In this document: one piece after another, positions 18,188 to 45,878 of the stretch | How positions within the stretch are numbered: the stretch's first letter is position 1 | How the letters are laid out: the number at the start of each line of letters is the position of its first letter | Origin: a virus | Direction: 5' to 3' (one strand) | Length of the DNA stretch: 49,711 nt | IMG/VR virus record: IMGVR_UViG_3300046824_000111 | Location: 1-49,711 of that record | Program-made: the position numbers and the translations under genes | Notes under the pieces: model-generated | Database searches by the model: none | The model's input: only the letters and a program-made list of their open reading frames with translations | Told to the model about the DNA's origin: nothing

Positions 18188-18208
18188 ACACGGCACTGCC
18201 GTGTTTTT
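18188..18208 (+). terminator. Rho-independent terminator
   Basis: 7-bp stem ACACGGC / GCCGTGT with loop ACT, followed by TTTT. It faces rightward with no clear rightward gene before it. Confidence 0.65.
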
Positions 18209-18307
18209 CCTCCCCAACCGTGCAGGCCGGGTCTTGACGGAGACCGCCCGCTCCTTACACCCTCGCCGGGCTGAGTGGTCGGCGGAGGGGTGCGAGCGGT
18301 CTCCCTG

Positions 18308-18379
18308 TTGCGCGGGCCGGATTCGAACCGGCGGCCTCCGGATTATGAGTCCGACGAGCTACCTCTGCTCCACCGCGCG
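18308..18379 (-). tRNA. Initiator-like tRNA-fMet (anticodon CAT)
   Basis: 72-nt cloverleaf on the minus strand. Acceptor CGCGCGG pairs with CCGCGCA at six positions, leaving a C1-A72 mismatch, the hallmark of bacterial initiator tRNA. D arm GAGC/GCTC with a 7-base loop, anticodon arm TCGGA-CTCATAA-TCCGG, variable AGGCC, T arm GCCGG-TTCGAAT-CCGGC, discriminator A73; CCA not encoded. It aligns closely to E. coli tRNA-fMet apart from a shorter D loop and an A-T pair replacing the third G-C pair of the anticodon stem. It lies opposite to the late operon. Confidence 0.88.
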
Positions 18380-18549
18380 CCACACGGAACCCTCCGCGCC
18401 GGTAGGGCGGAGGGGTCCGTTGCGAGGGGCAGCCGCCAGAGAACGGGCCGCTGTGGGGTGGCCGTATCTCCTGAACTGCTTCCGGGTCAAAGCATGCAAT
18501 GCGCAACCCGGGGACCGCAAATCCTGTCACCCATTTGGAGCAACCCGAC
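18380..18549. other. Intergenic leader between tRNA and head genes
   Basis: 170 bases with no convincing gene. It contains an imperfect stem around the tRNA end (CCTCCGCGCC ... GGGCGGAGGGG at about 18391-18415). The promoter for the tRNA and possibly one for the head operon should lie here; none was clear by eye. Confidence 0.3.
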
Positions 18550-18774
18550 ATGCTCTCCCGCTGGCCCGTCTACGAACGGGTCCTGGTCAACCTCCTAGAG
18601 GGCACCGCCATCGACGGTGTCCTGGTCCGCAAGTCCGGGCCGCTGATCGTCCTGTCCGACTGCACCATGTACTCGCGTGGGGCGGAGCCGACCCGCCTCG
18701 ACGGGAACATCTACATCGAACGCGACCAGGTTTTGTATTTGCAGACGGCGCCCGCCAAGACGCCGGTCACCTAG
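18550..18774 (+). CDS. Small Sm-like-fold protein upstream of portal
   Basis: 74 residues from the ATG at 18550. RVLVNLLEGTAIDGVLVRKS, GPLIVLSDCTMYSRG and LDGNIYIERDQVLYLQTA give the strand-turn pattern of an Sm/SH3-like barrel. Small genes of this type often precede portal in actinophage head operons. The function in assembly is not known. Confidence 0.65.
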   Translation: MLSRWPVYERVLVNLLEGTAIDGVLVRKSGPLIVLSDCTMYSRGAEPTRLDGNIYIERDQVLYLQTAPAKTPVT

Positions 18775-18794
18775 TCACCCGGAAGGAGTACGGG

Positions 18795-20096
18795 GTGCCT
18801 TTCGTGTTGAGTCAAGGTGCCATCAAGCGGGCCCAACCCGCCCCGTCCATGCTGGGCTTCGCCATGCCGTCCTACATGCAGATCGGCGAGGACCAGTACC
18901 GCAGCTATGAGCAGATGTGGAAAACCCAACCGGCCCTGCGCACCGTCATCGAGTTCCGGGCCCGCAACATTGCCCAGCTCGGCCTGGACGTTTTCGAACG
19001 CACCGGGGAGACGGACCGGAAAAAGGTTCGCGACCACCCACTGTCGAAAATGCTCAACGATCCGTGGCCCGGCAGCAAGTGGACGAAATACCGGCTGATC
19101 AACTGGACGGTGCAGGAATTCTCCATCTTCAACTCCGCGTTCTGGGTCAAAGGCCGGGCCCCGGACGGCACCAACGGGGTGCTGCCGATGCCGCGCCGGT
19201 TCATCCAACCCGTCGGCCCCAGCCTGTACTTCCCCGACAAGTACCGGATCACCGGGTCGCGGGGCACCCGCGACATCGACCCGGACCAGGTTGTCCACTT
19301 CTACGGCTACAACCCGGACAACCCGGCGGACGGCTGGTCACCGATCGAAACGCTGCGGCAGATCCTCGCCGAGGAGTCCGCGGCAACCCAGTACCGGGAA
19401 CAGATGTGGCGCAACGGGGCCCGGATCTCCGGCTACATCACCCGGGGAGAGAAAGCCCCCCGCTGGTCCGACACCGCCCGGAACCGGTTCAAGACCGACT
19501 GGGGTGCCTACTCCTCCGACATGGCCGCCGGCGGGACACCCGTCCTCGAAGACGGCATGGGCTGGCATGAGGGTGGCATCACCCCCAAAGACGCCCAGTA
19601 CGCCGAAGGGCGCCAGCTCACCCGCGAAGAAGTCGCCTCCGCCTACCACATCGACCCGTCCATGGTGGGCCTGTCGAAAAACGCCACCCAGTCGTCGCTG
19701 GGGGAGCTGCGGCAGATGTTGTACGCCGACGCCCTGGGCCCGCTGCTGGAAATGCTGCAGCAGGACATCGAACTGCAGCTCCTGCCCGACGTCGACCCAT
19801 CCGGGGCGAAGAAGACGTATGTGGAGTTCAACCTGCGCGCCAAGATGCAGGGCTCCTTCGAAGCCCAGGCCGCCGCCATCTCCGCATCCGTTGGTGGCCC
19901 GTGGATGACCCGCAACGAAGGCCGGGCCCTGTACAACCTGTCCGACCTGAAAGAAGCCGAAGAGCTCATCACCCCGCTGAATGTCACCCAAGGCGGTTTG
20001 GCGTCCCCGCGCGACACCGCCCCGAACAACCCGTCCAACGAAGCCTCCAACGGCAAACCCCCCGGACCGAAGAAACCTGTCGGGAGTGGCCCATGA
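18795..20096 (+). CDS. Portal protein (HK97-like)
   Basis: 433 residues. GTG at 18795 preceded by GGAAGGAG (18781-18788). Typical portal motifs: QMWKTQPALRTVIEFRARNI near residue 50, WGAYSSD and GGTPVLEDGMGW, EVASAYHIDPSMVGL, QSSLGELRQMLYADALGPLL. It forms the dodecameric ring through which TerL pumps DNA. The gene overlaps the protease start (ATGA). Confidence 0.93.
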   Translation: MPFVLSQGAIKRAQPAPSMLGFAMPSYMQIGEDQYRSYEQMWKTQPALRTVIEFRARNIAQLGLDVFERTGETDRKKVRDHPLSKMLNDPWPGSKWTKYRLINWTVQEFSIFNSAFWVKGRAPDGTNGVLPMPRRFIQPVGPSLYFPDKYRITGSRGTRDIDPDQVVHFYGYNPDNPADGWSPIETLRQILAEESAATQYREQMWRNGARISGYITRGEKAPRWSDTARNRFKTDWGAYSSDMAAGGTPVLEDGMGWHEGGITPKDAQYAEGRQLTREEVASAYHIDPSMVGLSKNATQSSLGELRQMLYADALGPLLEMLQQDIELQLLPDVDPSGAKKTYVEFNLRAKMQGSFEAQAAAISASVGGPWMTRNEGRALYNLSDLKEAEELITPLNVTQGGLASPRDTAPNNPSNEASNGKPPGPKKPVGSGP

Positions 20097-25587: not shown

Positions 25588-25826
25588 CAATCCGCCAAGC
25601 CATGAACGTCCTGTGGGAAGCCATGGTCGAAGAGATGCGCCTGACTCGGCTCGAACTCGACACCCGCAGGCATTTCACCGAAGAGAAACAGCCGATCGAA
25701 CTCGCCCGGGATTTGATCGCCAAGTGGACCGAACCGTACGAGCCGGTCGCCCCCGAAGTGCTCGCCGCACAAAACGCGATGGCGTTCCGTAAGGCCGCCA
25801 GTCACAACCTTGTCGAAGTGGGGTGA
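25165..25826 (+). CDS. Tail assembly chaperone, -1 frameshift product (G-T fusion)
   Basis: About 220 residues, joining 25165-25488 to 25488-25826 by a -1 slip. The downstream frame has no stop between the slip and 25826 and reads TQDQFRWLLTWCERNWP, ending FRKAASHNLVEVG. A start at 25602 alone would remove the joining segment, so the fusion is the natural product. The product overlaps the tape measure start by four bases. Confidence 0.85.
25482..25488 (+). promoter_or_regulatory. Programmed -1 ribosomal frameshift site
   Basis: GGGAAAA in frame ACG GGA AAA, i.e. X XXY YYZ heptamer, in the 3' part of the chaperone ORF. Same position as in lambda G/GT and actinophage tail genes. Confidence 0.85.
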
Positions 25827-28800
25827 CCTCCGTGGCCAACGACGAAGACGTCATCGATTCAGCGGTAGTCCGCATCGGACCCGACCTTTCCAAGTTCCGG
25901 GCCAAGCTCGAAAAGGACCTTGTCAAAGCCGTCAAAGGTATCGAGGCGAAGGTTGCCGTCGTCGCTGACGGCACCGGGCTGCGGAACTCGGTCAAAGAGG
26001 CCGTCGCGAAGCAGTCGGCGCTCCGTGGCCAGCCCGTCTACAAGGTCAAAGTGGTTGCTGACGGCACCGGGCTGCGCCAGTCGGTGCGCCTTGTCGTCAA
26101 GGAACAGATGGCCCTGGGCAACCAGCCCGTCTACAAGGTCAAAGTCGTCGCCGACGAACGGGGCTTGAAAAACTCCATCGCCAACGCCGGGAAGTCCGTC
26201 GTCCAGGCCACCCAGCGCACCGAGAACGAGATGGACCGGGTCCGGGCGGCAGCGACCATACGTCGGCAGCGGGGTGAAGAGCAGGCCGCCCGGGACCGGG
26301 TCCGAACGGCGGAACGGGCCGCCCGGGACCAGGCGAGGGCCGAAGAGCGGGCCGCCCGGGAACAGGTCAAGCAGCGCAACAAAACCCTGTTCACCTCCCA
26401 GCGGCTCGTCGACTTCGGCGGCGAAGGCATCAGGCCGATGAACCTGCTGTACGGGACTGTCGTCGCCATGACCCCGGCCCTGTTCGCCATGGGCTCATCC
26501 GCCGTCCAAGCGTCCACCTCCATTGCCGCCCTGGGCTCCGCCGGCATCGGTGCCGCCCTGGGGTTGTCCGCTATCGGCATCGCCTTCAAGGGCATCGGCG
26601 ACGCACTGACTCTGCGTAAGACAGTGCTGGGGCAGGAGACTACCTCCGCCGCGAACTCCGCCCGGGATGCTGTCAACGCCGCCGACGACCTGGCCCAGTC
26701 CAAGCGGGCCCTCGCCAATGCGCAACGCGACGAGGCCCGCGCCGGCGAAAAGGTCCACGACGCCCGCCGCGAAGCCATCCGTGACCTTGAAGACCTGCGC
26801 AAGGCGGTTCGCGACCTCGACAACGAATACAAGTCGGACACTCTGTCCGTTGCTGAAGCCCAGCAGAATTTGGATGCCACCAACGCCAACTACTTCGCTA
26901 ACGCCCTCGACCGGGCTAGGGCCGTCCAAGACCTCAACGACGCGAAGACCCGCCTCGCCGACACCGCCCTGGAACGGAAGCGGAAAAAGGAAGACCTGAA
27001 GATTTCGGTGTCCAAAGGCATCGAAGGTTCCGACAAAGTCCGCGACGCGAAAGAGCGGGTCCGGGATGCCCGGGACCAAACCCTCAACGCTCAAGCGGGT
27101 CTGCAGAAATCCACCGCCGGCACCATCGACAAGACCACTTCCGCTGCCGCGCAGTTGGAGCAGAAACTCAAGGACATGAGCCCGGCCGCCCGGGACATGT
27201 ACAACTGGTTCGTCAAAAACGAGGACCTGTTCAAGCGCCTCCAACGGCAGATCAGCCAGAAAACCCTCCCCGGGTTCAACACCTTCCTCAAGGCGATTAC
27301 CGCGGCACCGAAGGGCGGCAAGTCCACACTGCAGCTCGCCGCGGAATACGCCGGGCAGCTCGGATCCATCATCGGCAAGTACATCGGGAAGCTCGGCGAA
27401 TGGACAAAGAGTCCCCTGTTCCGCGACTCGATGGCCCGCATCCAGGAACGCAACGCGGCAGCATTCGACAAGCTCGGCCAGGCCCTGCTGATCCTGGCCG
27501 ACCCGATCACCCGGATCCTGGACAAGGCGTCACCCGGGTTTGAGTCCCTGTCCGACACCATCCTGAAGCTGTCGGACAGCTTCGCTAAATGGATCAAGAA
27601 GTTGGACGAAAACGGCGGCCTCGCCCAGTGGTTCGAGGACTCCCGGGTTGAGGCGAAGAAGTGGTACGACATCGCCTCCAACATCCTCACCCTGTTGAAG
27701 AACCTCTTCACCGCCGCCCTGCCTGCGGGCGGCTCCCTGGTGTCGAGTTTCCGGGACTTCACCAAGAGCCTCGCCGACTGGTCATCGTCGCCGGAGGGCA
27801 CCAAGCAGATCAGCTCCTTCTTCGACAAGATCAAAAACCTGCCCTACGCAGACATCATCGACTTCTTCAAAAACGCCGCCGTCTTCTTCACCGTCTGGCG
27901 CACCGTCAAATTCCTGAAAACCCTCAACCCGTTCTTCGCCGCCCTCGGAGCATTCGCCAGCTCAAACCCCGCCGCCGCAGCCGCCGCAATGGCCGGCATC
28001 TCCGACGCCCTCGTGTACGTCATGAAGTACGCCGCCGACAACCCGAAATCCATCACCGCCCTACTCGCCCTCGTCGCCGGATACAAGGGCCTCAAAGCGG
28101 TCGGGTTCAGTCTGAAACTCCCCGCCGTCACCGCCCTACAGACCGCCCTCACCAGCAAGTTCAAATTCCTCGACAAGTTCATCGGCGGCGCCAGCACGGC
28201 CACCATGACCGTCCACGCCGGAGTCGTCAACGTCTACGGCAAAGCCCTCGGCGGGACTGGCGTCGACCTCGGTGGGGGGAAGAAGCCTGGCAAGATCACC
28301 AAGCCCGGGGGACTGCCAGGGAGGGCCATCCCTGGGGCGCTGCCAATGCTCGGCTCCGCGCCCAGCGCCATCGGCACCCTTGCCGTTGGTGCCCTGACCG
28401 TCGCCGGTGGCCTTATCGCCGCATCCATCATCGTCGACACCGTCCTCGGCAAGCCCGGCACCGCCCTCGAAGGATTTAAAGCCCTCGCCATGGGCCCGCA
28501 GGCGTACTCGGAGTGGTCGAAGGAGAACGCCCCAGGCTTCAAGCGGTTCTTCTCCATGACCTTGCCCGGGTGGATCACCGCCGGGGGTAAGCAGGGCTGG
28601 TCATCGTTCAACGACGCCTTCAAAAACGACGTCGGTGACATTGAACGGTTCTTCTCCCACACCATCCCCGAGTTCCTCACCGCCGGCGGCAAAAACGGAT
28701 GGTCTTCGTTCAAAGACGCCTTCCTCAACGACATCGGCCTAGGGGGCGACGCCGCCGGCAGCAAAATCCCCAACTTCGCCGCCCCCGCCCTCGCCCTGGA

Positions 28801-30553
28801 AAAGAACGCCTACGACCGACTGTCCAAAGACCTGTTCCTCACCGGCGGCTTCAACAACGCCGTAGCCCAAGACTCCCTCAAGGTCTACATTCAGCGCCGC
28901 AAAGAAGCAGTCAGCGCCTACGTCCGCTACATCCGGTCCCAAGAGGGACCCATCGCCGCAACAAAGGCCGAGAAGGACGAAACCGAGAAGTCAAAGACGG
29001 CCCTGAAAAACCTCTACCTTCAGTACGGCGAAACCGCGACGAACGCCAAGAAGTACGCCGATGAAGCCTACGGAGTCGCCGCGCAAACACAGACGGCATC
29101 CGACAAGACCAAAAACCTCAACGCCGACCTCGGCACCCTGTCAGAGCGCCTCGACGCCGTCACTGGCGTCAAAAAGATCATCCTCACTATCTCCGGCGAA
29201 GAGAAGGTATTCAACAACCTCGAAACCGCCGTCGCTTACCAGCAGCTCATCCGGACGGGACAGCCGGCCACCACGGCAAACCTGAACAGATATCGGCTGC
29301 AGTTCGAAAAGCAAACCTACGCGGGCGGCGGCAGGGTCACCGGCTACTCGCCGCACGACAAAGCCGACAACATTCCCGCCTGGTTGACCGCCAACGAATA
29401 CGTGCAGCCGGTAGCTGCAGTCAAGCACTACGGCACCGACTTCATGGAAGCCGTCCGAACCCGAAGGTTCCCGAAATACGCCGAAGGTGGCCAGGTTGAC
29501 TCCTGGCCATTCAAGGTGCTCATGCCGCAGGACGCCGCCGACGTCGTATCGCCGCCGGCCTACGGGGCGCCCGGCGGCGGCAAAGCCACCGGCAGCATCC
29601 AAGTTGCCGAGATTGCGGAAGCCACCGCCAGAAGCATGGGGGCCACCCAGAAACAACTCATCGCCCTCATCGCCGCTGGGCTTGTCGAATCCGGAATGCG
29701 GAACATCAACTACGGTGACCGAGACAGCGTCGGCTTCCTCCAACAGCGACCGTCGCAAGGATGGGGGTCCGTCGCCCAGCTCCTCGACCCCGCCTACGCC
29801 ACCCGAAAATTCATCCAAGCCGCACGACGCATGGACTCCGGGAAGATCAGCGCCGGGGAACTCGCCGCCCGGATCCAGCGCCCCGCCAAGCAATTCCGAG
29901 GCCGATACGCCCAACGCGAAGACGACGCCGTCGCCGTCCTCAACCGGCTCGCCCCCTACATCACCGTCGGCACCGGCGGCGCAGGCGGCACCAAAGCCGC
30001 CCTGATCGCCTTCGGGCGCTGGCTCCAAGTCCGGGGCTACGACGTCTCCGAACACCCCGCCTTCGGTGGCGTCACCAAGGGCGGCCACGTCAGCAACTCC
30101 CAGCACTATCGGGCCAGCGCCATCGACGTCAACCACGGCGCGGGAACTTCCACTCGGGAACAGAACTACCTGCGGCAGATCATTCCCGAAGGCCACCGCC
30201 GCGGACTCCGATCCATTTTCATGACCGCCGGGCACTACGACCACGCCCACTTCGATTTGGGCGCCGGACACAAAGACGGCGGCCTTGTCCCGCGCAAGTA
30301 CGACAGCGGGGGGATCCTGCCGCCCGGCTACTCCCTGGCCTTCAACGGCACCGGGAAAAACGAAACCGTCCGCACCAACCAGCAAGAGCAGGCCATCACC
30401 AGCCCCGGCATCACCCGTCTCGACCGCCGAGACCTGGCCTTGCTCGCCCAGTACATGGCGCAGGTCGTTGGCACCCCGGCAATCACCATGGACGGACGCC
30501 GGGTCGCCGAAACCACCAACCGCTACAACTACCTGCCGGCGGGGGTGCAATGA
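25823..30553 (+). CDS. Tape measure protein with two embedded cell-wall hydrolase domains
   Basis: 1576 residues from GTG 25823. Residues 1-160 include a three-fold repeat of 'VxKVKVVADGTGLRxS'-type units, then coiled coil (170-480) and hydrophobic membrane segments around 190-270 and 840-890. Residues about 1257-1388 resemble a transglycosylase/lysozyme (LIALIAAGLVESGMRNINYG, Glu near 1289, VGFLQQRPSQGWG). Residues about 1389-1480 resemble an M15-like zinc peptidase (HYRASAIDVN, HYDHAHFD). The end is a typical TMP tail. It sets tail length and helps DNA cross the wall. Confidence 0.92.
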   Translation: MTSVANDEDVIDSAVVRIGPDLSKFRAKLEKDLVKAVKGIEAKVAVVADGTGLRNSVKEAVAKQSALRGQPVYKVKVVADGTGLRQSVRLVVKEQMALGNQPVYKVKVVADERGLKNSIANAGKSVVQATQRTENEMDRVRAAATIRRQRGEEQAARDRVRTAERAARDQARAEERAAREQVKQRNKTLFTSQRLVDFGGEGIRPMNLLYGTVVAMTPALFAMGSSAVQASTSIAALGSAGIGAALGLSAIGIAFKGIGDALTLRKTVLGQETTSAANSARDAVNAADDLAQSKRALANAQRDEARAGEKVHDARREAIRDLEDLRKAVRDLDNEYKSDTLSVAEAQQNLDATNANYFANALDRARAVQDLNDAKTRLADTALERKRKKEDLKISVSKGIEGSDKVRDAKERVRDARDQTLNAQAGLQKSTAGTIDKTTSAAAQLEQKLKDMSPAARDMYNWFVKNEDLFKRLQRQISQKTLPGFNTFLKAITAAPKGGKSTLQLAAEYAGQLGSIIGKYIGKLGEWTKSPLFRDSMARIQERNAAAFDKLGQALLILADPITRILDKASPGFESLSDTILKLSDSFAKWIKKLDENGGLAQWFEDSRVEAKKWYDIASNILTLLKNLFTAALPAGGSLVSSFRDFTKSLADWSSSPEGTKQISSFFDKIKNLPYADIIDFFKNAAVFFTVWRTVKFLKTLNPFFAALGAFASSNPAAAAAAMAGISDALVYVMKYAADNPKSITALLALVAGYKGLKAVGFSLKLPAVTALQTALTSKFKFLDKFIGGASTATMTVHAGVVNVYGKALGGTGVDLGGGKKPGKITKPGGLPGRAIPGALPMLGSAPSAIGTLAVGALTVAGGLIAASIIVDTVLGKPGTALEGFKALAMGPQAYSEWSKENAPGFKRFFSMTLPGWITAGGKQGWSSFNDAFKNDVGDIERFFSHTIPEFLTAGGKNGWSSFKDAFLNDIGLGGDAAGSKIPNFAAPALALEKNAYDRLSKDLFLTGGFNNAVAQDSLKVYIQRRKEAVSAYVRYIRSQEGPIAATKAEKDETEKSKTALKNLYLQYGETATNAKKYADEAYGVAAQTQTASDKTKNLNADLGTLSERLDAVTGVKKIILTISGEEKVFNNLETAVAYQQLIRTGQPATTANLNRYRLQFEKQTYAGGGRVTGYSPHDKADNIPAWLTANEYVQPVAAVKHYGTDFMEAVRTRRFPKYAEGGQVDSWPFKVLMPQDAADVVSPPAYGAPGGGKATGSIQVAEIAEATARSMGATQKQLIALIAAGLVESGMRNINYGDRDSVGFLQQRPSQGWGSVAQLLDPAYATRKFIQAARRMDSGKISAGELAARIQRPAKQFRGRYAQREDDAVAVLNRLAPYITVGTGGAGGTKAALIAFGRWLQVRGYDVSEHPAFGGVTKGGHVSNSQHYRASAIDVNHGAGTSTREQNYLRQIIPEGHRRGLRSIFMTAGHYDHAHFDLGAGHKDGGLVPRKYDSGGILPPGYSLAFNGTGKNETVRTNQQEQAITSPGITRLDRRDLALLAQYMAQVVGTPAITMDGRRVAETTNRYNYLPAGVQ

Positions 30554-37535: not shown

Positions 37536-37754
37536 ATGACCTGGGAAGAAGCCTTCGCGTACGTCGACTCCGTAATCGAGCAGGAGTGCGCGGAACAAGG
37601 CATCACCGTCGCCATCACCGACCCGGTCATCCTCGCGCTATCCATCAACCTGATGGGCATCGGCAAACGTAACCACGACGCGCCTCTGGTCAAAGCGGGG
37701 CCCACACCTGCCCGAAGGAAGAACCGTAGCCCTCGCAATGTGCGCACCCACTAG
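37536..37754 (+). CDS. Small protein convergent with integrase
   Basis: 72 residues from the ATG at 37536, overlapping the 3' end of the leftward integrase by 117 bases. The first 45 residues (TWEEAFAYVDSVIEQECAEQ, GITVAITDPVILALSINLMG) look like a genuine compact domain; the tail is Arg-rich. Little Shine-Dalgarno is visible and a leaderless mRNA is possible. Function unknown. Confidence 0.45.
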   Translation: MTWEEAFAYVDSVIEQECAEQGITVAITDPVILALSINLMGIGKRNHDAPLVKAGPTPARRKNRSPRNVRTH

Positions 37755-39170
37755 CTTCCGCTGCTGGGTCAAGGCGAGAGCCTCGAACCACCCGTGCAGG
37801 TCGTCATAGTCGCGCCCGACTGGGTGGGGGACGGCCATCCGCTGAGTTAAGGATTTGATCAAGCCCTTGGCCTGATCGTGCCGCTCGTGTACCGGCTTCT
37901 TCAAGCTCAGATATTCCCGGAGCGACATCCGGTTCGCCTTATCCTTGTACGCCTCTTCGAGTTCCAGCAGCTCACCCTCACAGAGATCCAGTTCGGCGCC
38001 GACCTGCTTGATCTGTTCGTGCAGCCCCACCTCGCTAGACATCGTCGCCCCGAACTCCCGGGTCTGAATCAATCGGCGGAAGATCCGCGCGATAACCAGC
38101 TTGTCCACCGGCCCCGCCAAAACGCCGAGCCTCCCGCATGACCCGCGCTGCTTGGCCTCCAACCCTGAGGAACAGGCATAGCCGGGTTTCGCAACCCTCA
38201 CCCCACCTGTCGCCTTGATCTTTCGCTGAGCTCCCTTCAAGGGCCGCTTGCATATTCCGCACAGCAGCACTTCGGTCAGCAGGTATTTGTTGTTGGGACC
38301 GCGCGGCTTGGTTCGCTTCTTCCCAACCTTCAGCAGCTCCCACGTGGCCCGCTCAAGGACCGGCTCCCACGTAGCATCCGCAGTGTCGTACGTCTTCACG
38401 CCCGTCTCCTCGTCCACCACGCTGAATATCTGCTGGCCGACCATTCGCGGGTTCGTCAGAACCTTCTCCAGAGTCGTAGGACTCCAGGGGGCACCGCTCG
38501 CCCCATAGATCGGCGGCGACCTCGAATGCCAATCGCGAACAATATCCGCGTACGACTCCCCGGCGACGATCCGCTCCGCCGCTTCCCGGAGGTTCTCCAC
38601 CTCCTCGGGTATATGGGCAATTCCGGGGCGCCCGGGGTTCAACAACTTCTTCTTCTGGTCGCGCTTGGCGCCCTCAAAGCCGTAGGGACGCCTCCCGCCT
38701 TGATACGTGCCTTTCTCTCTCCGCAGGCCCGAGTTCGCCTTGATGCGGATCTTCATGTTGCGAATTTCCTTCTCCGCCATCATGACGTTGAACTCCATCA
38801 GGAAGCGCTGGTCCTCGTTGTCGCTACGGTGCCTTTCGTCGGCGCTGATGATAACCGCGCGGCCCTTGCGAGCCGCCCGGATACAGCGATGCCATTCACT
38901 GCTCAGTCGGGTCAGTCGGTCAACGCGGTAGACCACAACGCCTGCGTAAAGCCCCGCCGCAAGATCCACCAGCATCTGCTCGTACTCCTCGCGCCAGACG
39001 GCTTCGTCGGCGGCGGTGACGTTCGGGTCGTCGAACCACCTGCCGATGACTTCGCCGTCAGCCTCCGTGCACTTGACGATGCTCTTCGTCTGCACCTCCG
39101 TCCCAAGCTTGTCGCCGTCGCGGTCATTGGAGAGCCGGCGGTAGCCGCAATACGGCCTTGAGCTGGGCAT
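37638..39170 (-). CDS. int: Large serine integrase
   Basis: 510 residues. The ATG at 39170 has AGGAGG seven bases upstream. Resolvase domain residues 1-150 with nucleophile Ser14 (YRRLSNDRDG) and VVYRVDRLTR; recombinase domain (GRRPYGFEGAKRD, SPTTLEKVLTNPRMVG) about 180-290; zinc ribbon (LLCGICKRPLKGA ... CSSGLEAKQRGSC) about 320-375; coiled coil (IKQVGAELDLCEGELLELEE) about 405-450. Directional integration and excision with an accessory factor. The attP lies 39 bases upstream. Confidence 0.95.
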   Translation of the reverse strand: MPSSRPYCGYRRLSNDRDGDKLGTEVQTKSIVKCTEADGEVIGRWFDDPNVTAADEAVWREEYEQMLVDLAAGLYAGVVVYRVDRLTRLSSEWHRCIRAARKGRAVIISADERHRSDNEDQRFLMEFNVMMAEKEIRNMKIRIKANSGLRREKGTYQGGRRPYGFEGAKRDQKKKLLNPGRPGIAHIPEEVENLREAAERIVAGESYADIVRDWHSRSPPIYGASGAPWSPTTLEKVLTNPRMVGQQIFSVVDEETGVKTYDTADATWEPVLERATWELLKVGKKRTKPRGPNNKYLLTEVLLCGICKRPLKGAQRKIKATGGVRVAKPGYACSSGLEAKQRGSCGRLGVLAGPVDKLVIARIFRRLIQTREFGATMSSEVGLHEQIKQVGAELDLCEGELLELEEAYKDKANRMSLREYLSLKKPVHERHDQAKGLIKSLTQRMAVPHPVGRDYDDLHGWFEALALTQQRKLVGAHIARATVLPSGRCGPRFDQRRVVVTFADAHQVDG

Positions 39171-42188: not shown

Positions 42189-42197
42189 AAGGACTTA

Positions 42198-42228
42198 GGC
42201 GGGGCCGTCATTGCGACGGCCCCGCCCT
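42198..42228 (+). terminator. Rho-independent terminator
   Basis: GGCGGGGCCGTC / GACGGCCCCGCC, a perfect 12-bp stem with a short ATTGC loop, then CTATTCGTTTT. It separates convergent genes. Confidence 0.85.
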
Positions 42229-42406
42229 ATTCGTTTTCCAGCCAGCGAAGAACTTTGATCAGGGTGCGTACGTCGCACCCTTCCCCGTACCCGTTCTCGA
42301 TGCGGCCCAGCATGGACGTCGGTACCCCGGCCTGCCCGGCGGCCCCACCGAGGGTGAGTTTGCGTCGTCGCCGGGAGGCGGCGACGATCAGCGGCAGGTC
42401 ATACAT
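42227..42406 (-). CDS. Small XRE helix-turn-helix protein
   Basis: 59 residues; ATG at 42406, GAAGGG upstream. The whole protein is a minimal XRE HTH: DLPLIVAASRRRRKLTLGGA, AGQAGVPTSMLGRIENGYGE, then RTLIKVLRWLENE. Leftward, downstream of the membrane-anchored GntR-type gene; candidate lysogeny or Cro-like regulator. Confidence 0.75.
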   Translation of the reverse strand: MYDLPLIVAASRRRRKLTLGGAAGQAGVPTSMLGRIENGYGEGCDVRTLIKVLRWLENE

Positions 42407-42432: not shown

Positions 42433-43008
42433 CTATGTGCGGTAGAACGTGGCCCCCTCCCGTCGTAGTACCCCTCGGCGGGTGAGGTCGGAGACGACCC
42501 GGTGCACGGTGGAGTTGCTGACTCCGCAAACATTCCGGAGCTCCGCAAAGGGGGGTAAATGTTCCCCGGGGGAAAATGTTTTCAGCAGGTGCCATTCGAG
42601 GCGTTCCCGCGGCAGGTCCCCGTGTTTTGCGCCAGGGATGAAAGATCCTCGCCCAGGGTGAACTTCGATCAAGCCTTCCTCTTTGAGCAGGGTCAGGGCC
42701 TTGGTGACCGTCCTTGGGGTGACGTTGTACTTTTCGGCGATTTCTCTCGTGCTGGGGAGCCTCTGTCCAGGGCTCATGCTTTCCTCTTTGATTTCCCATC
42801 GGAGCCTCATCGCCAGGCTTAGGTAGTTGATTGGGTTCCCCTCCATCTCTTCCGCGTCGTCGTGGAAATGCAGCCATCCGTAGGTACTGAGGGCCGCCCC
42901 GATGAGCCCGGACAGGAACATGAACGGGTCGGTGGTGGCGGCGGCGATGTACATGCAGGCGATGTTCACTACTGCGGCGGCGATGGCGAGGTAGCGAACG
43001 ATGGTCAC
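42433..43008 (-). CDS. Membrane-anchored regulator with two GntR-type winged helices
   Basis: 191 residues; GTG at 43008. Residues 1-50 hold two TM helices (VRYLAIAAAVVNIACMYIAA and FMFLSGLIGAALSTYGW). Residues about 58-125 are a GntR winged helix (LSLAMRLRWEIKEESMSPGQ, RLPSTREIAEKYNVTPRTVT, EGLIEVHPGRGSFIPG) and 130-191 a second, more diverged one (PPFAELRNVCGVSNSTVHRV, RRGVLRREGA). Such an architecture implies DNA binding tethered at the membrane. It sits in the control region divergent from the early operon, so a lysogeny regulator is a reasonable guess. Confidence 0.78.
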   Translation of the reverse strand: MTIVRYLAIAAAVVNIACMYIAAATTDPFMFLSGLIGAALSTYGWLHFHDDAEEMEGNPINYLSLAMRLRWEIKEESMSPGQRLPSTREIAEKYNVTPRTVTKALTLLKEEGLIEVHPGRGSFIPGAKHGDLPRERLEWHLLKTFSPGEHLPPFAELRNVCGVSNSTVHRVVSDLTRRGVLRREGATFYRT

Positions 43009-43169
43009 TGGCGTCGTGGGGGCTCCTCTACACACACCCGGTGCGCGAGTCCGGGGTTGGGCTGGGTGACCCAGCGGGTGTCGTCTTCGGCGAAAATGCT
43101 GCACCAGCAAATCTTGCAGGTGGTCCGGGGTGGACGTTGCCCGCTGGGGGCACCTGATTTGGCGTCCAT
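43005..43169 (-). CDS. Small Cys-rich protein
   Basis: 54 residues; ATG at 43169. TTCKICWCSIFAEDDTRWVT and AHRVCVEEP form a probable zinc finger. Overlaps the GntR-type gene start by four bases (GTGA), so it is cotranslated with it. Confidence 0.55.
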   Translation of the reverse strand: MDAKSGAPSGQRPPRTTCKICWCSIFAEDDTRWVTQPNPGLAHRVCVEEPPRRQ

Positions 43170-43300
43170 CAGCGCCTCCCACGCAGCGGGAGCGGGACGC
43201 GAATCCATTTCACGGCGGGCTCCCATCGGCTGTTGCGTCGATGTACTCCGCCTGTCCTTTTGCGGTAGTCGGGGTGGGTACTGGCGATGTAGAGGGTCAT
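43169..43300 (-). CDS. Very small basic protein, first gene of the leftward control operon
   Basis: 43 residues; ATG at 43300 after AAAGGAAG. Contains TLYIASTHPDYRKRTGGVHR and a basic end KWIRVPLPLRGRR. Its good ribosome-binding site and the start directly downstream of the divergent control region support it. Unknown function. Confidence 0.5.
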   Translation of the reverse strand: MTLYIASTHPDYRKRTGGVHRRNSRWEPAVKWIRVPLPLRGRR

Positions 43301-43615
43301 GTCTTCCTTTCGGTGGTTGCTGGGCCCAACGGAGCAGGTGGCGGGTCGGATGTGCCCGGTCCGCGTTTTTCCTCTGCTGATGCGATCGGCCACTTTCGGG
43401 TGACACGTAGGCGAGCGACTCTCACATAAATCCGGACGTTTAGGACCCAGTGGCGTGTGAGTGCGGGGCTGGTTGCGGAGCAGTCAGAATGGTCCGGGCA
43501 CCAGTCAGAATGGTGCTCGTTGCCGATGTCGTAGCCCCGTGATTGTGTTTAACCAGTCGCCACCGAAACACTCCGGCCGGCGACTCACCAGCCATTTCAC
43601 AGGGGGATCGTCGCC
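43301..43615. promoter_or_regulatory. Divergent control region upstream of the early operon
   Basis: 315 bases separating the leftward control operon from the rightward early operon, with no convincing gene. It holds two identical 13-bp direct repeats CAGTCAGAATGGT at 43481 and 43502, exactly two helical turns (21 bp) apart, the second inside the palindrome GCACCA...TGGTGC. A Shine-Dalgarno-like AGGGGGAT precedes the GTG at 43616. Promoters could not be assigned with confidence. Confidence 0.6.
43481..43514. repeat. Tandem 13-bp operator-like repeats
   Basis: CAGTCAGAATGGT at 43481-43493 and 43502-43514. Identity and helical-phase spacing suggest cooperative binding by a regulator encoded nearby. 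Confidence 0.6.
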
Positions 43616-43999
43616 GTGAACCAGGAGACTCTCTACACCGTTCGGGAAGTCGCGGACATGCTCGGGATCAGCCGCTACCAGGTCTACCGGCGCATCGTCC
43701 GCGGTGACCTCCGGGCCATCGAATACCGGCAGGGCAACATCCACTACATGATCACCGAGAAGGCCCTGCAGGAGTACCGATCCGCAGGTGGGGGCGATGT
43801 TCTCTCCGCGCCTCGGCCTCCCGACCCTCGGATGATGCGGGTGTCGCAAGTGGCCATCGAAACCGGGTACTCCGTCGAAACGATCCGGCAGATGTGCCAC
43901 GAAGGTCGCATCCCGTGCACGAAGGGCCGGGGCGACAAGGGCCACTACCGGATTCCCCGCGCGGCGGTCGAAGACATGCTCGCCGGCATTCCCCGCTGA
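43616..43999 (+). CDS. Tandem excisionase/MerR-like HTH protein, first gene of the early operon
   Basis: 127 residues; GTG at 43616. Two HTH units of the same kind: residues 5-52 (YTVREVADMLGISRYQVYRR, GDLRAIEYRQGNIHYMIT) and 73-122 (RVSQVAIETGYSVETIRQMC, HEGRIPCTKG...HYRIPRAAV). A double excisionase-like protein could act as Cro-like regulator or as an architectural factor for integrase. It faces away from the GntR-type gene across the operator region. Confidence 0.78.
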   Translation: MNQETLYTVREVADMLGISRYQVYRRIVRGDLRAIEYRQGNIHYMITEKALQEYRSAGGGDVLSAPRPPDPRMMRVSQVAIETGYSVETIRQMCHEGRIPCTKGRGDKGHYRIPRAAVEDMLAGIPR

Positions 44000-44080: not shown

Positions 44081-44878
44081 ATGTCAATCCGACGTATTCA
44101 ACGCGGTCGAAATCACGCCTACACCATCAACGGCCACACCGCTGTCGGGGTTACGACAGCCATCAACAAAGGACTCCCGAAGCCCGCCCTGGTGCCCTGG
44201 GGTGCCCGCTGCGTCGCCGAAGAGGCCGCACCTCTAATGATGGGCTCCGATGCCCTGGTCCGGGAGTACCTCGACGAGCACCACATCACCACCGACCGGG
44301 ACCTCATCGAATACCTGAAGAAAGCTCCGAGCCGGATCCGCGACGGCGCTGCGGTACGGGGCACCAAAGTGCACAAGATCGCCGAGCAGCTCGTCTTCGG
44401 CCGGGACGACATTGACGTGCCGGAAGAACTCCAAGGCCATGTCGAATCCTGCATGTTGTTCATCAACGAGTGGAAGATCCGCCCCCTGCTCGTCGAACAC
44501 ACCGTCGGCTCCTACCGGTGGGGATACGCCGGCACCTTCGACCTCATCGCCGAACTCCCCGACGGAAGGCGAGTCCTTTTCGACTATAAGACAGGAGCGT
44601 CAGGGGTGTGGCCGGAGACTGCCCTACAACTGGCGGCGTACCGCTATGCCGATGCCTACGTCGCACCGGACGGCACCGAGATCCTCATGAAAGACGTCGG
44701 CGTCACCGAATCCAAAGCGGTCTGGGTCCGCGCAGACGGCTACGACGTTATTCCCCTCGACACGGGCGGCCACGTCTTCAAAGTGTTCCTCCACGTCCTC
44801 CAGGTCGCGAAGGGCGTCGACGAGATGAAGTTGTGGAAAGGCGAAGCGGAGAGGGCGCCGTGGATGAAGACGTTCTGA
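44081..44878 (+). CDS. PD-(D/E)XK exonuclease (Cas4/RecB-like)
   Basis: 265 residues. Core motifs: GTKVHKIAEQL (His98), GYAGTFDLIAEL (Asp154), VLFDYKTG (Asp168, Lys170) and ALQLAAYRYA (Gln183), the H-D-(D/E)xK-Q series of RecB/Cas4-type nucleases. It probably resects DNA ends to make ssDNA for the RecT-like protein encoded just downstream, forming a two-component recombination system. Confidence 0.88.
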   Translation: MSIRRIQRGRNHAYTINGHTAVGVTTAINKGLPKPALVPWGARCVAEEAAPLMMGSDALVREYLDEHHITTDRDLIEYLKKAPSRIRDGAAVRGTKVHKIAEQLVFGRDDIDVPEELQGHVESCMLFINEWKIRPLLVEHTVGSYRWGYAGTFDLIAELPDGRRVLFDYKTGASGVWPETALQLAAYRYADAYVAPDGTEILMKDVGVTESKAVWVRADGYDVIPLDTGGHVFKVFLHVLQVAKGVDEMKLWKGEAERAPWMKTF

Positions 44879-44937
44879 TGGTGTGCGTCGGCTTCGGCGC
44901 GCTCCTACTCATGTGCGCACTCGCATTCGTTGTCTAA
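44878..44937 (+). CDS. Tiny membrane peptide between exonuclease and RecT genes
   Basis: 19 residues from the ATG at 44878 that overlaps the exonuclease stop (TGATG); GTG 44860 would give 25. MVCVGFGALLLMCALAFVV is one hydrophobic helix. Conservation would be needed to be confident. Confidence 0.4.
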   Translation: MVCVGFGALLLMCALAFVV

Positions 44938-44951
44938 CAGAAAGAACACTC

Positions 44952-45878
44952 ATGTCTGAGCTGGCCATCCGCACCACCACCGACCTCGGCAACTTCGTCG
45001 AAGAAGCCCGCCAAGTCCACCAGATCGCCGTCGCCCTCGCCGACACCGCCTTCGTCCCCACGTCGATGCGGGGTAAGCCACAGGAGATCACCGGGGCCAT
45101 CCTCTTCGGCAGGGAACTCGGCCTCGACCCGATGACCGCCCTGCAAACCATCAACCTGATTCAGGGCCGCCCCACCCTCACCGCCAACGCCATGCGGGGC
45201 CTCGCAATGGCCGCCGGGGTCCGGTTCCGCCTCGATGAGTCCACACAGACCCGCTGTGTCATGTCCGCGGCAGCCCCCGGCATGGAGCGATGGACAACCA
45301 TCACCTGGACCCTCGATCAAGCCCGGAACCTGGGGCTGCTCACAAAAGACAACTGGAAGAACCAGCCCGGCGCCATGCTCATCGCCCGCGCGACCTCCCA
45401 GCTCTGCCGCCTCGTCGCCGCGAACATCCTCATCGGTGCCCCGTACAGCACAGAGGAGGTCCGGGACCTTCCCACCGAAGAGGTGGAGGCCCCGCCGAAG
45501 CCGAAGAAGCAGGTAGCCCAGTCGCCGAAGTACGACGAGCCGGAGCTGACCCCCGACAACGACGTCCCGGACTTCACCCAGCCCGCCAACGAGCCATCGA
45601 AGGAGATTGGCTACGACACAAGGGACGACGGCCGCACCGCACCGGAGGCGCCCATTGACCGGGAAGGGAAGGTGACGACGAAAACCCGCAATGCGTTGAT
45701 GGCCGCATTCGCTGACGCCTCCATCAAGGATCGCACCGTCCGCAACGAGACGGTGTCGAAGATCCTCGGCCGCGAGGTCCACACCGTCAACAACCTCACC
45801 GAAGCCGAAGCACAGTCGGTGCTCGCCGTCCTGTCGATGGATCCAGAATGGCCGCCGGTTGCTGGGGTGCAGTCGTGA
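44952..45878 (+). CDS. recT: RecT-like single-strand annealing protein
   Basis: 308 residues; ATG at 44952. Residues 20-180: AVALADTAFVPTSMRGKPQE, AILFGRELGLDPMTALQTIN, LIQGRPTLTANAMRGLAMAA, then RATSQLCRLVAANILIGAPY, a pattern recurrent in actinophage RecT-type recombinases. The C-terminal third is acidic linker plus a small helical domain. Pairs with the upstream exonuclease. Confidence 0.82.
   Translation: MSELAIRTTTDLGNFVEEARQVHQIAVALADTAFVPTSMRGKPQEITGAILFGRELGLDPMTALQTINLIQGRPTLTANAMRGLAMAAGVRFRLDESTQTRCVMSAAAPGMERWTTITWTLDQARNLGLLTKDNWKNQPGAMLIARATSQLCRLVAANILIGAPYSTEEVRDLPTEEVEAPPKPKKQVAQSPKYDEPELTPDNDVPDFTQPANEPSKEIGYDTRDDGRTAPEAPIDREGKVTTKTRNALMAAFADASIKDRTVRNETVSKILGREVHTVNNLTEAEAQSVLAVLSMDPEWPPVAGVQS

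Follow-up and report, generated by a model that had tools for sequence, protein, structure and literature searches.

Genes of a divergent control region

The analysed DNA, here called the window, is an IMG/VR virus record of 49,711 bases with a GC content of 63.5%. It carries genes for a terminase, a portal, a major head protein, an endolysin, an exonuclease, a RecT-like protein and a RusA-like protein, and the portal has its best match (47%) to an Arthrobacter phage. Judged from its sequence, the window is a temperate siphovirus of actinobacterial type. When 30.0-49.7 kb was compared by megablast with 50,697 phage records, nothing matched. At 18201-18795, a tRNA-Met (18307-18379, minus strand) lies inside the longest portal ORF; the best tblastn matches to phage portals begin near residue 190-201, and the true portal start is probably located downstream of the tRNA.

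ORF 42433-43008 (minus strand; 191 aa counted from a GTG at 43008, an uncertain start codon) encodes a predicted tandem GntR winged-helix protein with a two-helix anchor. It belongs to a leftward operon ordered as a 43-aa protein, a 54-aa Cys-rich protein, ORF 42433-43008 and a 59-aa Cro/C1-type helix-turn-helix (HTH) protein, all on the minus strand. The 43-aa protein (43169-43300) is basic by sequence. The Cys-rich protein (43005-43169) appears zinc-ribbon-like by eye, with a Pfam match only below the cut-off. The Cro/C1-type gene (42227-42406) matches HTH_31 below the cut-off in the window and above it in the relatives L022 and L023, with no Pfam match for the L002 homologue, and a terminator-like hairpin (42197-42227, minus strand) closes the operon. 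The plus strand carries the divergent early operon, which starts with a double HTH_17 gene (43616-43999, excisionase/regulator-like) followed by the exonuclease and RecT-like genes (44081-45878). A serine integrase gene (37638-39170, minus strand) is also present. ORF 42433-43008 lies opposite the early operon, as the sequence-only reading had placed it, in the divergent control region of a temperate phage, where an immunity repressor would be sought. The double HTH_17 protein also matches PADLOC mad1 (mads_1) with an E-value of 8e-16 (best stretch 72-119), which probably reflects just the common HTH_17 fold.

Direct scans for ORF 42433-43008 revealed one relative, L002 (the same contig as L021, 78%), and a scan with the neighbouring exonuclease revealed six contigs, L021-L026. 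Full-length homologues including the anchor are encoded by L021 (78%), L023 (50%) and L022 (47%). L024 has the winged-helix part alone (44%), with its own ATG and no fused anchor, and L025 and L026 were checked and have no homologue. With the window counted, the anchor is fused in four of the five phages having the winged-helix part. All five genomes are IMG/VR contigs, and we know of no isolate of this phage group. The Cys-rich and double-HTH neighbours accompany the gene in all five phages and the Cro/C1-type gene in four. An integrase is found in each of the five records, of the serine type in three and of the tyrosine type in two, indicating that the control module persists across a change of integrase type. 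A ParA-type ATPase (PF13614) is absent from all five records, and a partition role was discarded.

Scans with the four-sequence alignment and with the Cys-rich gene yielded no additional contigs of this type, and tblastn of the double-HTH and Cys-rich proteins against the phage records gave no match. A GntR-weighted alignment scan found five further viral contigs with GntR ORFs, none strongly hydrophobic (highest 1.04), and a single genome scan found three relatives matching from residue 62 onward only. Seven of the 50,697 phage records match, each over 34-39% of the query and in the first winged helix, and 178 of 72,556 plasmid records match the winged-helix protein. In the ten plasmid matches examined, the N-terminal portion of the coding sequence is free of strongly hydrophobic stretches; in L035, a plasmid match, such a stretch lies just upstream of the annotated start, outside the coding sequence.

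Predicted architecture and known systems

The sequence-only reading had described two transmembrane helices followed by two GntR-type units within 191 residues, and Pfam, hydropathy and AlphaFold2 agree on this predicted arrangement. Membrane helix 1 (residues 2-25; 42934-43005, minus strand) is predicted by hydropathy and AlphaFold2, together with conservation at the protein level. Its hydropathy maximum over 19 residues, 2.05, ranks second among 35 picked ORFs of the window, with only the 1576-aa ORF 25823-30553 above it. Helix 2 (residues 28-55; 42844-42927, minus strand) is predicted by AlphaFold2, and its hydrophobic part stops near residue 48. Helix 2 reaches lower hydropathy values than helix 1 in the window (1.24) and is likewise only moderately hydrophobic in the relatives (0.99, 1.51 and 1.63). 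An invariant TTDP stands just before helix 2 and an invariant STYGWL within it. The first 59 residues gave no match when searched against Pfam.

Winged helix 1 (residues 62-124; 42637-42825, minus strand) is supported by Pfam, AlphaFold2 and structural alignment, and winged helix 2 (residues about 133-190; 42439-42612, minus strand), which is GntR-like, by AlphaFold2 and by Pfam on the second unit alone. The whole ORF scores 90.5 bits against GntR (PF00392, cut-off 27) in two stretches, the best being 62-124, and the C-terminal 66 residues alone score 31.7 bits, placing both units above the cut-off of the family. Among the best 25 of 35 Pfam matches, no FCD, UTRA, aminotransferase-like or YtrA-helix effector domain was present, and the modelled chain terminates with winged helix 2. 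AlphaFold2 with four sequences gave helices 2-25 and 28-55 followed by two complete winged helices (mean pLDDT 77.9, pTM 0.46), and with two sequences it gave two long helices and then two winged helices (pLDDT 72.0). Structural comparisons of the model with GntR structures by VIA-align showed Z scores of 10.4-13.1 among the best 50 rows, with an r.m.s.d. of 1.4-3.7 Å over 63-76 residues, except for one row of 6.3 Å over 77 residues. These rows span winged helix 1 only, and winged helix 2 was barely probed by them. By prediction from hydropathy and AlphaFold2, transmembrane segments and a DNA-binding domain are thus joined in one chain. A defence library gave weak generic HTH matches only.

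The protein resembles the GntR superfamily (YvoA, DasR, YtrA) in that both units score as GntR. However, it has two winged helices per chain and an N-terminal membrane hairpin, and no C-terminal effector domain was seen. The tandem-GntR regulators of Streptomyces and Kitasatospora plasmids likewise have two GntR stretches (L008, L009, L010, L012), and when the winged-helix profile was run on the loci searched, its best matches beyond the phages of this group were tandem-GntR proteins on Streptomyces plasmids (L010, 4e-32; L012; L009). In contrast to ORF 42433-43008, the plasmid proteins are soluble, have no hydrophobic anchor within the N-terminal portion of their coding sequence and are longer (259-291 aa). 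ArnR/ArnR1 of Sulfolobus acidocaldarius is described as a membrane-bound one-component regulator that has an HTH domain and two transmembrane segments in one chain and binds promoters (PMC6396743). As described there, however, its HTH domain is N-terminal, HAMP-like and sensing domains are present and the two transmembrane segments are C-terminal; moreover, the protein is archaeal and not from a phage. Regulators of the CadC/ToxR/TcpP type have an N-terminal winged helix and a periplasmic domain, unlike ORF 42433-43008. As described, these transmembrane transcription regulators (PMC5430869, PMC7496328, PMC10269533) are alike in working only, with a DNA-binding domain held at the membrane; the words GntR and phage are absent from the text of PMC10269533. 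PhiC31 gp26, listed by Foldseek, was rejected as a counterpart, being a single GntR protein with no anchor by eye.

The combination of an anchor with tandem GntR units was found in no annotated phage record, in none of the ten plasmid matches examined and in no paper among those that the open-access searches brought up. Neither a membrane-bound GntR protein nor a membrane-anchored phage repressor was seen in these search results, which for phrases on such repressors comprised the first 20 of 2,661 entries. Membrane-bound one-component regulators and tandem GntR proteins on Streptomyces plasmids are already established; what appears to be new, as far as sequence comparison indicates, is their combination in a phage.

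Conservation and translation of the membrane hairpin

The conservation of the anchor was assessed by placing the same substitutions randomly in five of the six pairs, all but window-L021. Residues 5-28 are conserved as protein in all five tested pairs (p 0 to 0.0008, 5000 trials). The randomized substitutions gave p 0 to 0.0124 for residues 5-18 in the five pairs and weaker values (0.022-0.104) for residues 19-28 alone, and the two other frames over residues 5-28 gave p 0.095-0.95 in three pairs. Codon-position counts and pooled pN/pS alone do not mark helix 1 as coding: the third-position excess over residues 5-28 is only slight, and pN/pS, which is near saturation, is 0.74 for residues 2-18 vs. 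0.55, 0.56 and 0.71 for three segments within 28-191. Comparison of the window with L002/L021 gave a dN of 0.125 and a dS of 0.464 (dN/dS 0.27) for residues 19-60, 0.203 and 0.527 for residues 61-125, and 0.132 and 0.617 for residues 126-191. The four fused proteins share R5, A8, A11, A12, N15, TTDP, STYGWL, A52 and E53 without exception. On the basis of these sequence comparisons, translation of the hairpin is very probable in the window, L021, L022 and L023. A true start downstream of the membrane part, which the sequence-only reading had named as fatal to it, is unlikely because the anchor is conserved as protein in these four phages, odd as the start codon is.

That ORF 42433-43008 encodes a soluble double winged-helix repressor, with the hydrophobic stretch untranslated or partly translated, is accordingly improbable. 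L024 does have a soluble form that begins at its own ATG, all four fused proteins keep M67, and residues 1-18 of the window and L021 show five coding differences, 4.5 of them non-synonymous, which would suit an untranslated stretch but are too few to judge. However, the conservation of residues 5-28 extends across the more distant pairs, residues 28-60 have a dN of 0.162 vs. a dS of 0.573 between the window and L002/L021, and a start at M67 would cut the first helix (62-76) of winged helix 1.

The start of the anchor differs among the phages. GTG 43008, which shares bases with the TGA of the Cys-rich gene upstream, occurs in the window only, the aligned codon being ATA in L021 and CTG in both L022 and L023. 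The frame is open upstream of 43008, where the next in-frame start triplet is GTG 43035-43033; about codon -8 (nine codons upstream), the window has GTG and L021 has ATG. No ATG, GTG or TTG occurs from codon -32 to 19 in L023 or from codon -40 to 31 in L022, a startless stretch from the far interior of the upstream gene to the middle of the anchor. NTG triplets recur in the anchor frame of all five phages at about codons -36, -32, -21 and -8 (window numbering); at least some of them coincide with conserved Cys or Trp codons in the upstream gene and are hence partly forced. At the nearest of these positions, the window reads GTG, L021 reads ATG, and L022, L023 and L024 read CTG. In addition, an ACG at codon -1 or -2, 7-8 nt past a purine run (by eye), is found in four of the five phages, L024 being the exception. 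As read from sequence, the recurrent NTG and the ACG are no more than candidates for the true start. Translation may start by non-canonical initiation coupled to the upstream gene in some phages or follow a -1 shift, or the irregular starts may be assembly errors.

A -1 frameshift near the end of the Cys-rich gene would yield a single Cys-rich/anchor/double winged-helix protein and explain the absent start codons, L022, L023 and L024 having no ATG, GTG or TTG near the beginning of the anchor. In all five phages, the anchor frame is offset by -1 from that of the Cys-rich gene and runs through this gene with no stop codon. Synonymous shuffling keeps it open with a probability of 0.25-0.47 in each of four tested phages, which are related and not independent, and the -1 relation is also the outcome of any 4-base stop/start overlap. 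However, start triplets lie nearby at codon -8 in the window (GTG) and L021 (ATG), and in the window at codon 1 as well (GTG). Between the conserved EE and the stop there is no common slippery heptamer by eye, and none at all in L021, and a scan with the Cys-rich gene gave no in-frame fusion. Inside the Cys-rich gene, the anchor frame (p 0.001, 0.104, 0.434, 0.011, 0.116 and 0.046 in six pairs) is not clearly more conserved than the third frame (p 0.000, 0.213, 0.181, 0.013, 0.356 and 0.205). Since the third frame scores alike, dual coding deep in this gene is not convincing, and on all these grounds we consider the frameshift very unlikely.

Two further hydrophobic sequences were observed. 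In L024, the two-helix frame is again -1 to the Cys-rich gene and has no ATG, GTG or TTG within the stretch checked, while the winged-helix gene lies in another frame; this arrangement (L024:3391-4192), with the startless frame between the Cys-rich and winged-helix genes, may reflect a split gene, a frameshift or an assembly error. The anchor profile fails to recognize the two-helix frame. The best outside match of that profile (E 0.16, not significant) is a stand-alone protein of 98 aa encoded near HTH genes in L026, a more distant relative (L026:2462-2758, minus strand). This protein has two hydrophobic stretches, and its motif ALSTAGWVFF can be compared with ALSTYGWLHF.

Candidate operators and possible roles at the membrane

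Several conserved elements lie between the two operons. The direct repeat ACCATTCTGACTG occurs twice, 21 bp apart, in the window (43481-43514, minus strand) and is common to the window and L021; repeat pairs elsewhere are 35 bp apart in L023 and 11 bp apart in L022, with none in L024. The GAATGG core starts exactly 12 bp before the start of TTGCC in the window, L021, L022 and L023. The conserved block CCGTGATTGTGTTT (43537-43550, plus strand) is probably part of the rightward promoter or an operator, and CCGTGATTG(T/G)GTTT starts 17-18 bp after the TTGCC start. A second candidate operator, the conserved GTGACAC box (43400-43406, plus strand; GTGACCC in L023, absent in L024), is positioned 111-133 bp before TTGCC. 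L024 has a variant of the CCGTGAT block only and does not share the other conserved elements. A sigma-70 promoter scan found none.

Any of the three DNA-binding proteins might use these sequence elements as sites. Between the window and L021 the repeats do not change, whereas 6 of the 13 residues in recognition helix 1 do; the repeats were therefore not assigned to ORF 42433-43008. The asymmetric repeats were not taken as the mark of a pseudo-dimer, the 21-bp pair being found in the window and L021 only and the cases too few. Recognition-helix hypervariability as an immunity signature was also rejected, as eight differences in the most variable 13 residues are not significant (scan p 0.11). 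The earlier identification of the protein as the repressor is not supported, with a Cro/C1-type HTH gene adjoining it and a double-HTH protein opposite.

Taking sequence and structure models together, ORF 42433-43008 may be a membrane-tethered single-chain GntR pseudo-dimer that regulates the lysis/lysogeny control region, a reading that we believe and doubt in equal measure. The hairpin, with both ends cytoplasmic and about four residues outside, would fix the protein to the membrane from the cytoplasmic side, and the two non-identical winged helices would engage an operator of the control region in the manner of a pseudo-dimer within one chain. The control region would then be bound at the membrane and early transcription tuned there, by repression or, less likely, by activation, probably in concert with the Cro/C1-type HTH protein encoded next to it. 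The anchor would be translated in coupling with the Cys-rich gene, and a non-standard start codon seems to be used in some relatives, which would keep the level low. With a predicted loop, TTDP, of about four residues, an outside domain is unlikely to serve in sensing, and the protein may possibly sense the state of the membrane or act purely as a tether. Counting against the regulator are the two other HTH proteins, which are candidates for the repeats, the constancy of these repeats despite the changed recognition helix 1, the L024 gene without a fused anchor, the irregular start codons, the cruder coding measures for helix 1 and the only moderate hydrophobicity of helix 2.

The same hairpin, with almost no outside domain, fits tethering better than sensing, and transcription could be left to the module's other two HTH proteins. 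The protein might thus be a membrane tether for the incoming or replicating phage genome or for superinfecting relatives, with a function like that of phi29 p16.7, and not a transcription regulator. We consider this unlikely though worth weighing, since both DNA-binding units belong to a transcription regulator family, the gene is located in a divergent control region and among the plasmid kin the annotation reads transcriptional regulator or winged-helix protein. The DNA-binding fold of phi29 p16.7 is other than that of ORF 42433-43008, and p16.7 has a replication role with single-stranded DNA and terminal protein. Phi29 p16.7 is described as a phage-encoded integral membrane protein that binds DNA, and together with p1 it has been proposed as a membrane anchor of viral replication (PMC4974454). 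The comparison concerns working only.

A bolder form of the membrane-held regulator, which we regard as a long shot, is a switch working at the membrane. In it the anchor would be made deliberately at a low level, through a non-canonical start or a frameshift coupled to the Cys-rich gene, and tethered and untethered forms would determine the state of the switch or trap superinfecting relatives where they enter. If this were true, the split arrangement of L024 and the two-helix protein of L026 would be variants of one modular design. To our knowledge, the well-studied phage repressors are soluble. If ORF 42433-43008 does encode a membrane-held GntR regulator, lysogeny in these phages could depend on the state of the membrane or on the location of the phage DNA, and the gene offers a small system in which this can be tested.
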